From NCBI RefSeq assembly GCF_900128455.1, contig NZ_LT635783.1:534322-598321 (forward strand): DNA of 64,000 nucleotides, read 5' to 3'. The position numbers and the translations under genes are program-made. This document shows positions 14,546 to 64,000 of this stretch, in pieces. Numbering within the stretch: the stretch's first letter is position 1; every line of letters begins with the position of its first letter. Under the pieces are notes generated by a model, which searched no databases, had not been told where the DNA came from, and saw only the letters and a program-made list of their open reading frames with translations. This DNA comes from Bacteroides mediterraneensis (GTDB lineage: Bacteria; Bacteroidota; Bacteroidia; Bacteroidales; Bacteroidaceae).

Positions 14546-15862
14546 ATGGCAGAAAAAGAATTCAGACAGGAAGGCGAAAACAGCCAGTCTGGCCGCGATG
14601 GTTACAAGTCTTATAACAGAGAAGGGTATAATAAGTACGGTAGAGGCGAGAAAAGCAACAGCTACGGTCGCCGTCCGTATAACAACAATAGAGAAGGGGG
14701 AGAGGGTTATCGCTCTTCCTATAATCCTCGTTTCAATAACAACAACGGGGAGGACCGTCCGCAGAGAGGTGGCTACGGCAATCGTCCGCAGCGTCCTTAT
14801 GGCAACCGTCCGTATAACAATGAAGGAGGAGAACAGCGCTCTTCTTACAATCCGCGTTTCAATAACAACAATGGAGGACGTCCGCAGCGTTCTTACGGCA
14901 ACCGTCCGTATAATAACAACAATGAGGGGGGTGAGCAGCGCCCGTATCGTCCGCGCTTCAACAATGGCGGACAGCAGGGTGGTGAACAGCGTTCCTATCG
15001 TCCGCGTTTCAATAACGGTGGACAGCAAGGTGGTTATGGACGTCCGCAAGGAGGGTACCGTCCGCGTACAGCTGACTACAATCCGAATGCGAAATACAGC
15101 ATGAAGAAGCAGATTGAGTACAAGGATGTGCTGACCGACCCGGATGAACCGATTCGTTTGAACAAGTTCCTGGCCAATGCGGGAATCTGCTCTCGCCGTG
15201 AAGCGGATGAATTCATCACCGCCGGAGTGGTTTCAGTGAACGGTGAAATCGTGACGGAACTGGGTACGAAGGTGAAACGTTCGGATGAAGTGAAGTTCCA
15301 CGACCAGCCGGTGAGCATCGAACGCAAGGTGTATGTGTTGCTCAACAAACCGAAAGATTGTGTGACGACTTCCGACGATCCTCAGGAACGCAAGACGGTG
15401 ATGGATTTCGTGAAAGGTGCCTGCAAGGAACGCATTTATCCGGTGGGACGTCTGGACCGCAATACTACGGGTGTGCTCCTGTTGACGAACGACGGAGACC
15501 TGGCTTCCAAGCTGACGCATCCGAAGTTCCTGAAGAAGAAAATCTACCATGTATATTGCGACAAGAACGTGACTAAGGCGGATTTGGATCAGATTGTACA
15601 GGGTATCACACTCGACGATGGTGAAATCCATGCCGATGCCATCAGTTATGCTTCGGATACGGACAAGTCGCAGGTAGGCATTGAAATCCACTCCGGAAAG
15701 AACCGTATCGTGCGCCGTATTTTCGAATCGCTGGGATATCGGGTAGTGAAACTGGACCGTGTGTATTTCGCCGGACTGACCAAGAAGGGACTTCGTCGGG
15801 GTGACTGGCGCTACTTGACAGAACAGGAAGTAGCCATGTTGCGTATGGGGTCTTTTGAATAA
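14546..15862 (+). CDS. rluB: 23S rRNA pseudouridine synthase (RluB/RsuA family) with long disordered N-terminus
   Basis: Isomerises a uridine to pseudouridine in rRNA, most likely 23S rRNA as in RluB. The conserved part starts near residue 198 with an S4 RNA-binding domain (RLNKFLANAGICSRREADE), followed by the catalytic domain with Asp304 in GRLDRNTTGVLLLTNDG. The first 190 residues are unusual: a low-complexity region of Gly, Arg, Asn, Tyr and Gln in imperfect repeats around YNPRFNNNN, YGNRPYNN and RPRFNNGGQQGG. It resembles the RGG tails of RNA-binding proteins and is probably disordered and RNA-binding. Family assignment is secure; RluB rather than a paralogue is likely but not proven. 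Confidence 0.9.
   Translation: MAEKEFRQEGENSQSGRDGYKSYNREGYNKYGRGEKSNSYGRRPYNNNREGGEGYRSSYNPRFNNNNGEDRPQRGGYGNRPQRPYGNRPYNNEGGEQRSSYNPRFNNNNGGRPQRSYGNRPYNNNNEGGEQRPYRPRFNNGGQQGGEQRSYRPRFNNGGQQGGYGRPQGGYRPRTADYNPNAKYSMKKQIEYKDVLTDPDEPIRLNKFLANAGICSRREADEFITAGVVSVNGEIVTELGTKVKRSDEVKFHDQPVSIERKVYVLLNKPKDCVTTSDDPQERKTVMDFVKGACKERIYPVGRLDRNTTGVLLLTNDGDLASKLTHPKFLKKKIYHVYCDKNVTKADLDQIVQGITLDDGEIHADAISYASDTDKSQVGIEIHSGKNRIVRRIFESLGYRVVKLDRVYFAGLTKKGLRRGDWRYLTEQEVAMLRMGSFE
14690..15065 (+). repeat. Imperfect coding repeats in the rluB N-terminal region
   Basis: Repeated words such as CGTCCGTATAACAA and CGTTTCAATAACAA recur about every 60-100 bases and encode RPYNN and RFNN blocks. Such a tract can gain or lose units by slippage or recombination. 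Confidence 0.75.
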
Positions 15863-26908: not shown

Positions 26909-26990
26909 AAACGCCTTTGCGTTTGACTTGAAACGCAAGTGCGTTTGAAGGAAAACACAAGTGCGTTTTGACCGAAACGTAAAGGCGTTT
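26909..26990. repeat. Four-unit palindrome array, 22-base period (array A)
   Basis: Four 16-base imperfect palindromes of the form AAACGYNNNNGCGTTT (one arm varies slightly per copy) start at 26909, 26931, 26953 and 26975, each followed by exactly 6 bases before the next, a strict 22-base period. It lies about 100-180 bases upstream of the GH95 start. Confidence 0.88.
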
Positions 26991-49880: not shown

Positions 49881-50032
49881 ATTTTCCAAGTTTGAGTTGT
49901 TTATCTGCAAAGTTATAATTAAAAATGGGAGTCTGGCTATATAATGGTATTTATTTTGGCTGTTCGCGAGGGGGAGTGTAGCCATTTGGTGAAACATACG
50001 GGCATTTATACATTATTCCCCGTTCGTTTTTT

Positions 50033-50120
50033 ATGTTTCCCTTAAGGAAAACGTACGTTTCCCTTGGCCGAAACGTATGTTTCCGCATTGGGGAACGTAC
50101 GTCTCCGCTTCGGGAAACAT
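50033..50120. repeat. Four-unit palindrome array, 22-base period (array B)
   Basis: Four units start at 50033, 50055, 50077 and 50099, each exactly 22 bases, of the form RYGTTTCC-N6-GGAAACRY with small deviations. The unit joints read AAACGTACGTTT, so the DNA is palindromic in two registers. It lies about 150-240 bases from proC and 180-265 from the esterase start. Confidence 0.88.
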
Positions 50121-50219
50121 AGAAGATGCAGAGGGACTTGGAAGAAAATGTAGCGTCATTGGAAAGATTTAGGAAAAACTTGGATAAAAAAGTACCAAGC
50201 GAATTCGCAAGAGATGCAT

Positions 50220-62405: not shown

Positions 62406-63188
62406 TTATAAAATGTGGAAATGCTGCAAGGCTTTCAGGATGCCGTCGTCATCGACAGAGGCGGTTACGTAGTCGGCTACCGCCTGAATATGAGGGGCTG
62501 CATTTCCCATGGCAACCCCCAGACCTACGTGCTTCAGCATCGGGATATCGTTGCCGCCGTCTCCAAAGGCCATGGTATCTTGCAGGTCGATGCCGTAGAA
62601 AGCCAGCATCTGGTCGATGCCGTGGCTTTTGCTGTTTCCCCGGGCAATGATGTCAGCAAAGAGCGGATGCCAGCGCATCGGTTCGCAGTGCGTAAGTACG
62701 GTGCCGAAAATCTCTTCGTCCTTATCTTCCGGGAAGTAGCCCATGATTTGCAGGATTTCCTTGTCTCTGGCTGTTTCAATGGGGAGGATTTCCGGAATGC
62801 CGATGTGGATGAGTCGGGCAATCTCACGGACCGCCTCATTTTCGTGGGTCAGGAACCAGGTATTGTCGTGCACAAAGACGAAAGGCATTTCCGGATGAGT
62901 GTGCTGGTAGCGGATGAGGCGCTCGATGTCCTCCTGCGGCACACAGCCTTTGTAGATGTCCTGCCCTTCGGCAGTGAAACAGTAGGCTCCGTTCAGGGTG
63001 ACATATCCGTCGAAGTCGAGGTCGCCCACGGCCTCCATCATTAACGATTTGGGGCGTCCGGTGGCAATGAATACCTTGATGCCTTTTTCTCTTAAAAGTT
63101 GCAAGGCCTTGCGGGTGGAGGCTGGTACGGTGTGGGTCTGGAAAGAAACCAGTGTGCCGTCGATGTCAAAGAATATCGCTTTTATCAT
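62406..63188 (-). CDS. Cof-type HAD-IIB sugar-phosphate phosphatase
   Basis: A 260-residue cytoplasmic phosphatase of the haloacid dehalogenase superfamily. Motif I is FFDIDGTLVSF with the nucleophile Asp8, motif II is FIATGRP near residue 42, and the C-terminal motifs are the lysine in GNSKSHGIDQML and the acidic pair in MAFGDGGNDIPML. The cap (about 85-190) is the IIB type of Cof-like enzymes, which hydrolyse sugar phosphates or FMN. It has a -7 element of its own and is read towards xusA. Substrate not predictable. Confidence 0.93.
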   Translation of the reverse strand: MIKAIFFDIDGTLVSFQTHTVPASTRKALQLLREKGIKVFIATGRPKSLMMEAVGDLDFDGYVTLNGAYCFTAEGQDIYKGCVPQEDIERLIRYQHTHPEMPFVFVHDNTWFLTHENEAVREIARLIHIGIPEILPIETARDKEILQIMGYFPEDKDEEIFGTVLTHCEPMRWHPLFADIIARGNSKSHGIDQMLAFYGIDLQDTMAFGDGGNDIPMLKHVGLGVAMGNAAPHIQAVADYVTASVDDDGILKALQHFHIL

Positions 63189-63221: not shown

Positions 63222-63329
63222 AGGAATAAACGACAGAGAAGGTACACAGGTCGTTCTATAATCGAGGCTGGATACCTATTTTCTTTTTCCAATCTCCGGT
63301 GCGATAATGCATAAGGGGATGGCCGTTTT

Positions 63330-63417
63330 CTACGTTTCCTGTGGCGGAACCCTATGTTTCCCGCCCGTAAACCCTACGTTTCCGCTTGGGAAAACCTACG
63401 TTTCCCGGTGCGGAAAC
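63330..63417. repeat. Four-unit palindrome array, 22-base period (array C)
   Basis: Units start at 63330, 63352, 63374 and 63396, each exactly 22 bases, all opening CTAYGTTTCC and closing with AAAC, AACC or a close variant, with a variable centre. After the last unit a GTA continues the pattern. It lies about 140-230 bases upstream of the HAD start and 215-300 upstream of proB. Confidence 0.9.
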
Positions 63418-63525
63418 GTAAAGGAATCAGAAAAAGATTGGTATTTACGGGCTTGCGTTTTTTCCAGCCGCTAGGCAGGGGGAGACAACCTTTCACACGA
63501 ATATCCTTTTAGGGTGATAATTTGT

Positions 63526-63630: not shown

Positions 63631-64000
63631 ATGGAAAACAGAACTTATCAATATAAACGGATTGCCGTAAAGATAGGCAGCAATGTGCTGACCCGTCGGG
63701 ATGGGACATTGGATGTGACCCGTATGTCGGCTTTGGTCGACCAGGTGGCCGAACTGCACAAGGCCGGAGTGGAAGTGGTATTGGTGTCATCCGGAGCGGT
63801 GGCTTCCGGAAGAAGCGAGCTGAAACCGTTGAAAAAGCTGGACAGTGTGGACCAGCGGCAACTCTTTTCTGCCGTGGGACAGGCCAAACTGATTAACCGG
63901 TATTACGAACTGTTCCGCGAACACGGCATTACGGTGGGGCAGGTGCTGACCACCAAGGAGAGTTTTTCCACCCGCCGCCACTACCTGAACCAGCGCAACT
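63631..64000 (+). CDS. proB: Glutamate 5-kinase, 3' end cut by window edge
   Basis: First step of proline synthesis: phosphorylates glutamate. Only the first 123 codons are inside the window. The translation starts MENRTYQYKRIAVKIGSNVL and continues with VEVVLVSSGAVASGRSELK, the nucleotide-binding motifs of the amino-acid kinase fold, and QRQLFSAVGQAKLINRYYELF, which matches the family's glutamate-binding helix region. The frame is still open at the edge. proC is 14 kb upstream, so the pathway is split in this genome region; proA may follow outside the window. Confidence 0.93.
   Translation, partial: MENRTYQYKRIAVKIGSNVLTRRDGTLDVTRMSALVDQVAELHKAGVEVVLVSSGAVASGRSELKPLKKLDSVDQRQLFSAVGQAKLINRYYELFREHGITVGQVLTTKESFSTRRHYLNQRN

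Follow-up and report, generated by a model that had tools for sequence, protein, structure and literature searches.

Short palindromes dispersed between genes are known as REP and BIME elements, whose sequences are species-specific and which are linked to RAYT transposases; the foot of a REP palindrome carries a GTAG/GGAG-type tetranucleotide. The matS and Noc sites are marks of chromosome domains, and sites of the ParB/Noc type consist of GTTTC/GAAAC half-sites that are recognised by a ParB-like protein; the half-sites of the arrays described below may resemble them. The systems that follow are summarised from excerpts of the papers cited. Lrp-type dimers read palindromic sites of 13-17 bp that lie two or three helical turns apart, and the octamers of Lrp/AsnC proteins wrap the DNA (PMC2995911, PMC10201364). 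RemA of Bacillus is a ring protein thought to wrap repetitive DNA, and the promoter repeats concerned are poorly conserved (PMC8481266). BrickBuilt of Porphyromonas gingivalis is a minisatellite or MITE with a 23-nt tandem unit at 19 loci, with 1 to 22.8 near-identical direct repeats set in a leader and a tail, IS5-like ends and a range of one species group; 22-nt direct repeats of P. gingivalis are mentioned there without locations (PMC4596501).

The array studied here, array C, lies in a window of 64,000 nucleotides, the whole stretch of DNA that was analysed (C1:534322-598321 of a 4.08-Mb genome). A preliminary description had reported four successive 22-base units at 63330-63417, which was borne out when TRF returned the same interval with a period of 22, 4.0 copies and a score of 69. 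With an ungapped 102-column profile, the natural limits were set at 102 bp, and the four 22-bp units lie between a T-rich left end and an A-rich right end (Table 1). The name proB for the right neighbour fits both the AA_kinase domain and matches in Phocaeicola plebeius. The start of ProB is 96% identical over 123 aa to the locus of P. plebeius DSM 17135, the best among the 80 loci listed, and the genome was therefore taken as that of a close relative of P. plebeius. Array A sits behind the gene of ribosomal protein L31 (Pfam). Elsewhere in the window, an ORF of 438 aa (14546-15862) has S4 and pseudouridine synthase domains; ahead of S4, a 51-bp tandem repeat runs in frame at 14925-15034.

Table 1. 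Arrays of the window and the genes next to array C (window coordinates)
Feature	Position	Strand	Basis or remark
Array C, C-type element	63325..63426		102-column profile, TRF, model R1 match C1:597647-597745
Array C unit 1	63332..63353		profile
Array C unit 2	63354..63375		profile
Array C unit 3	63376..63397		profile
Array C unit 4	63398..63419		profile
Array B, C-type element	50026..50127, units 50033-50120		between proC and SASA-family esterase gene (Pfam)
Array A, A-type	26909..26990		four 16-bp pseudo-palindromes, 22-bp spacing: 26909, 26931, 26953, 26975
HAD-family hydrolase gene, left neighbour of array C, outside the element	62406..63188	-	Pfam PF08282
proB start, right neighbour of array C	63631..63999	+	Pfam AA_kinase; gene cut by the window end

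The abundance of such arrays was determined over the whole genome. GTTT repeated four times at exactly 22 bp gave 92 + 88 matches, compared with 2 + 0 for the pattern read backwards, which excludes chance. The three arrays of the window had been taken as one architecture; arrays B and C do belong to one family (C-type), but array A belongs to a separate one (A-type). Similarity searches with array C and its relatives and a sequence-only model led to at least 43 C-type loci, and a search seeded with array A and a model led to at least 60 A-type loci, 59 of which were parsed. These counts are lower bounds because only part of the first-look candidates was scored by the models (150 of 1357 for C-type, 150 of 996 for A-type). 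For the C-type, 86 matches on both strands were merged by hand into the 42 main-contig loci analysed; for the A-type, at least 163 matches were merged by hand into the 60 loci, and locus 3903183 did not parse. For the C-type, 20 of 23 copies went into model A2 (L018, L035 and L037 left out), and for the A-type, 24 of 25 went into model A3 (L061 left out). Nearly all loci of both families are outside called genes. The genome-wide search proposed in the preliminary description thus found about 100 loci, far beyond the three of the window.

The C-type unit reads TANGTTTCC-N6-GGAAACNTA with NTAN at its ends. Four units follow each other at exactly 22 bp and adjoining units share the TA; the symmetric site is 24 bp long. 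In alignment A2, only short T/A-rich stretches are common to the ends of the copies. The A-type unit is AAACGY-N4-RCGTTT, a symmetric site of 16 bp, followed by a 6-bp linker. Its core was ACTT in 79, AAGT in 70, CCTT in 35, AAGG in 28, CTTT in 14 and AAAG in 13 of 283 units; the cores point in both directions about equally, and their central dinucleotide is self-complementary in 5/283 units, against 106 expected. The number of units had been described as always four. This is the case for the C-type, where 39 of the 42 main-contig loci have four units, one has five and two are truncated, but not for the A-type, where 20 of the 59 parsed arrays have four, 31 have five and 8 have six.

The C-type arrays resemble BrickBuilt as dispersed, intergenic tandem arrays of a short unit in a Bacteroidales genome. 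In contrast to the 23-nt direct repeats of BrickBuilt, which vary widely in number (PMC4596501), they have a period of 22 bp, nearly always four diverged pseudo-palindromic units and no leader or tail, and such arrays occur in many species with many sequences. The RemA repeats, as far as the excerpts describe them, have no fixed palindromic form (PMC8481266), unlike the C-type arrays. In the open-licence literature, supplements aside, nothing was found that describes Bacteroidaceae arrays of 4 x 22 bp, nor a repeat family of matching form, in line with the earlier remark that no named element of this form was known; what comes nearest is BrickBuilt and the palindromic RNA candidates of a microbiome survey (PMC8040213).

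The conservation of the C-type elements was investigated in the relatives G337, G318 and G348, where they were found beside the same genes as the copies of the present genome in 20/20, 6/10 and 6/9 cases; 4/10 elements of G318 and 3/9 of G348 are without a partner here. The changes relative to our copy were counted by an ungapped column-by-column comparison of elements chosen by model score, in which the G318 figures take in L089 and the pair L320/493922 is kept, with unaligned flanks and perhaps no true counterpart. For G337, G318 and G348, respectively, they amounted to 0/160, 1/56 and 1/48 in the TA (0-2%), 43/640, 25/224 and 26/192 in the arms (7-14%), 69/320, 40/112 and 34/96 in the inner arm, 37/160, 33/56 and 26/48 in the junction base and 123/480, 79/168 and 69/144 in the free bases (26-48%). 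When a four-unit model was used to find the relatives' copies, the four-unit block matched ungapped in 40/40. The different fill noted earlier for the arrays is the stretch between their arms, where the bases evolve freely. The ungapped block across species, with inner bases turning over, supports the selection on spacing that the preliminary description had suggested.

These unequal rates bear on whether the arrays are dispersed mobile palindromes, REP/BIME or MITE-like, that were spread by a transposase and now decay in place. Decay would strike arms and free bases alike, which argues against such an origin. Like REP and BIME elements, both families are short, dispersed intergenic palindromes in many copies, with sequences particular to the species, and they have defined outer ends. 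The differences are the exact four-unit 22-bp form of the C-type, the kept arms with free centres and the absence of a RAYT from the present genome, which makes RAYT-driven REPs unlikely: PF01797 had 0 matches here and in G337, G348, G318, G313, G315 and G297, and was present in 6/61 genomes of the genus (one match in G320, two in G302). Mobility could also account for the near-identical C-type copies 963155/3781057/4031764 and 1958504/1808783 and for the one strong copy of G312, with surroundings 89% identical to those of 1958504. Since the flanks of the near-identical copies are similar too, these may be copies of larger DNA. Taken together, we regard a mobile origin as distinctly improbable. 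The two C-type elements of the present genome at C1:1958504 and C1:1808783 and the strong copy of G312, at C1:3680720, are closely related and lie in similar surroundings (for G312, 89% over 340 bases); a larger piece may have been transferred.

For a control, the comparison was repeated with ProB as the anchor. ProB had a match in 11 of 12 genomes, and in 3 of these 11 (G337, G348 and G318) an array was found 171-205 bp before proB. In these three genomes, changes were seen in 1/24 TA positions, 7/96 of the arms, 15/48 of the inner arm, 11/24 of the junction base, 34/72 of the free bases and 10/42 of the ends, which agrees with the model-picked comparison at this one locus. The C-type array upstream of proB was absent in 8 of the 11 genomes with a ProB match, and the site is therefore not kept across the whole genus. 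Genomes without it yet with C-type matches elsewhere were G313, G315, G320 and G354 (30-47 matches) and G345 (10 matches).

Arrays of another 22-bp sequence were observed about 330 bp before proB in G313 and, at locus L162, with a start 177 bp before the proB match. The families of 22-bp arrays upstream of proB thus differ by species (L440, L441 and L442 versus L444 of G313 and L162). It looks as if the place stays and the code is swapped; the cases are too few to tell.

Of 20 A-type loci, 18 could be parsed as a pair with shared neighbours in G337; one locus was partnerless and one of our arrays was unparsed. The unit number differed in 13 of the 18 pairs, by whole units. In the 12 well-aligned pairs, after dropping 6 of 18 with a difference of at least 20%, changes were found at 14/540 positions of the arms, 25/216 of the core and 56/258 of the linker. 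Free variation of the copy number is not seen for the C-type in these relatives, and for the A-type the number varies by whole units.

The gene contexts of both families were taken from our own codon-based caller, with 3/42 C-type and 4/60 A-type loci left unclassified. Of the 56 A-type loci that could be classified, 43 had a 3' end within 100 bp (null 13.1 +- 3.1), 24 were flanked by convergent genes (null 6.2) and 5 by divergent genes (null 18.3). The C-type showed no clear preference for an orientation, with 6 convergent (null 4.4) and 14 divergent (null 12.8) settings among 39, and was within 100 bp of a gene start at only 4/39 loci, more rarely than the random intergenic null of 12.7 +- 2.9. 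An enrichment upstream of starts, which the preliminary description had raised, was thus not found: the C-type is depleted there and the A-type lies behind genes.

The neighbours of the C-type elements fall into 121 Pfam families over 78 proteins (3/81 left out of the scan), the commonest being the TonB receptor plug in 6. A regulon was considered and rejected, as the 25 families listed from the 121 of Pfam and from the 339 of NCBIfam revealed no shared function; they include no transposase. Proline genes adjoin both C-type elements of the window (proB and proC), which at 2/42 proves nothing. Matches to the Bacteroidetes sRNA family FopS (RF04319) at L239:1688-1754, L243:1730-1796 and L245:2315-2381 are each some hundreds of bases away from one of three C-type elements that are near-identical; two of these loci extend as far as 16S rRNA genes, and a 5S gene is present in the third.

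We also considered whether the families mark chromosome domains as matS or Noc sites do, with the C-type towards the origin and the A-type towards the terminus. The A-type loci show a mild clustering around a mean of 1.92 Mb (Rayleigh p 0.009), the skew over 20 samples switches sign near 2.3 Mb and the two distributions differ (90/20000 permutations). However, the C-type is unclustered (p 0.21), both kinds occur all round the chromosome with random-like gaps (CV 0.96 and 0.97), and the A-type trend may follow gene organisation. A role as domain marks is therefore very improbable.

The involvement of RNA was evaluated by comparing the partner bases of the palindromes, which in stems would be expected to vary jointly. 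In 40 C-type elements of the genome, partner bases agreed 1083 times within units, versus 1106 +- 12 in column shuffles, and 672 times across junctions, versus 710 +- 8. The symmetrised test gave z -2.8 within units, z -4.9 across junctions and +2.5 for non-adjacent units. This below-chance palindromy could also stem from an avoidance of strong hairpins that is independent of the function. In the A-type, no compensation was found at the variable stem position, and the departures along the transcript in one-direction settings were 42 GU and 48 AC, showing no GU bias. In the C-type, the same settings gave 70 GU and 38 AC (p 0.003), at the junctions 54 and 33 (p 0.03). C-to-T changes (76) exceeded G-to-A changes (48) there, and the flanks contained 508 G and 397 C. 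Such a GU excess would be expected of arrays that act as RNA. The composition of the strands may account for it, but does not have to.

Arrays that work as RNA would be terminators or transcript structures, two-way between convergent genes, and this is most plausible for the A-type with its position near 3' ends and between convergent genes. At least two extra A/T bases run on at one or both ends of 51/59 A-type arrays, where on the right 43/59 carry at least two extra Ts and on the left 34/59 carry extra As; inside the arrays, extra A and T runs are rare (11 and 6 of 224 linkers). Both families fold well, with a median z of -5.65 (C-type) and -6.22 (A-type) against mononucleotide shuffles, and array C has z -3.72 against dinucleotide shuffles. 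In the excerpted survey of human microbiomes, most palindromic RNA candidates are called terminators; its candidates in Bacteroidetes are palindromic structured RNAs of 80-132 bp, treated as RNA, with no array period given in the excerpt, and some of them could be C-type or A-type arrays (PMC8040213). Measured against an intrinsic terminator, the A-type has the placement behind genes and the T-tract but no sign of selection on an RNA stem. Compensatory pairs were found in neither family, the A-type cores are two-way and confined to a few tetramers, limits that a loop would not need, and the T-left/A-right ends of the C-type are opposite to those of a terminator, without a preference for 3' ends. 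The lack of stem compensation and the two-way cores point to the DNA level, and the strand bias of the C-type points against it. On balance, we consider a function as RNA unlikely.

The kept half-sites, the free inner bases, the ungapped block of whole sites and the lack of compensation fit cooperative binding along one face of the helix, and a putative protein on one helix face is the best reading of the spacing. We propose that the C-type element is a four-site DNA platform, phased for a cooperative DNA-binding protein with a geometry like that of Lrp/AsnC and selected in place, and give this proposal an even chance of being right. Each element would offer four complete pseudo-palindromic sites, in which two TANGTTTCC half-sites face each other around six free bases and adjoining sites share the TA, phased at two helical turns. 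A dimeric DNA-binding protein would occupy each site, the dimers would line up on one helix face and bind cooperatively, and perhaps about 90 bp would be wrapped, as by an Lrp/AsnC octamer of four dimers. The A-type may be a second platform with its own sites just behind genes, and it may double as a two-way terminator. Our guess as to the role of the platforms is a part in local chromosome architecture or the insulation of transcription units from one another, since the neighbouring genes share no pathway. Array C is one of about forty such fixed blocks, which suggests an undescribed kind of protein landing platform on the DNA.

The likeness to Lrp/AsnC operator arrays lies in pseudo-palindromic sites two turns apart, 4-5 in a row, and in the octamer of four dimers. 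In the excerpts, however, Lrp/AsnC operators belong to particular promoters, whereas about forty blocks of the same form are found here, away from starts and beside mixed genes, and the 24-bp site of the C-type is longer than the 13-17 bp of Lrp-type sites. We use Lrp/AsnC as the closest working model, by analogy and with no claim of membership. The co-distribution with Lrp/AsnC proteins was tried as a clue to the binder and was uninformative: PF01037 had 3 matches in the present genome and was present in 61/61 genomes of the genus, arrays or not, which singles out no binder.

The spread of the arrays was followed in wider samples. At E 1e-4, the C-type was detected in 14/61 genomes of the genus, three of which gave weak matches only. 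Among 8 relatives searched, the A-type was present in G337, G348, G318 and weakly in G297, and was not found in G313, G315, G320 and G312. GTTT four times at 22 bp occurred in 74/161 genomes of the family, in some of them with tens of matches and with unit sequences of their own. In part of these genomes the backward-read control was raised as well, a hint of further array families. In a phylum sample, 17/296 genomes had the pattern, three of them inside the family.

Periods were also counted independently of GTTT in 1.5 Mb taken from the present genome, 80 proB loci mostly of Bacteroidaceae and two more genomes of the family. Outside open frames, arrays had period 22 eleven times, with L110 and L113 looking like one orthologous pair among these, 23 three times, 21 twice, 8 four times, 16 three times and other periods at most once each; the count requires four exact 4-mer repeats and misses many C-type arrays. 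Seven further period-22 clusters of the in-family samples, array A of the window included, were inside chance or real open frames. A genome from outside the family, sampled over 360 kb, had no array at period 22 or 23. In other Bacteroidaceae, arrays of unrelated sequence were again mostly of 22 bp. The predominance of the 22-bp period among families of unrelated sequence is a second point in favour of selection on spacing.

We extend the platform reading to the Bacteroidaceae more tentatively, and would sooner doubt this extension than rely on it. The family would have unrecognised, chromosome-wide phased platforms with a near-invariant 22-bp ruler, in which the recognised sequence is replaced by lineage, along with a DNA-binding protein that presumably diversifies as well; two or more codes per genome would be possible, one at gene ends and one elsewhere. 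If the platform reading holds, each chromosome of common gut bacteria would bear dozens of fixed nucleoprotein platforms of strict geometry, unnamed in the literature searched, whose sequence code turns over between species. They would then provide a test case for the joint change of specificity of a DNA-binding protein and some forty scattered sites. The 102-bp element, for which a scrambled version is a clear control, could serve as the bait in a search for the putative protein. A caution applies to the palindromic candidates between genes that have been listed as structured RNAs in Bacteroidetes, since they may be DNA-level sites.

Two further 22-bp arrays were observed. One, with AGTACT-like palindromes, is located in the present genome at L082:6850 (C1 ~2606850), which makes at least one 22-bp array there beyond the two families. 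The other, with TCACCTTAGTGA-like units, is found at matching places in Phocaeicola vulgatus ATCC 8482 and P. sartorii (L110:7394 and L113:7386).
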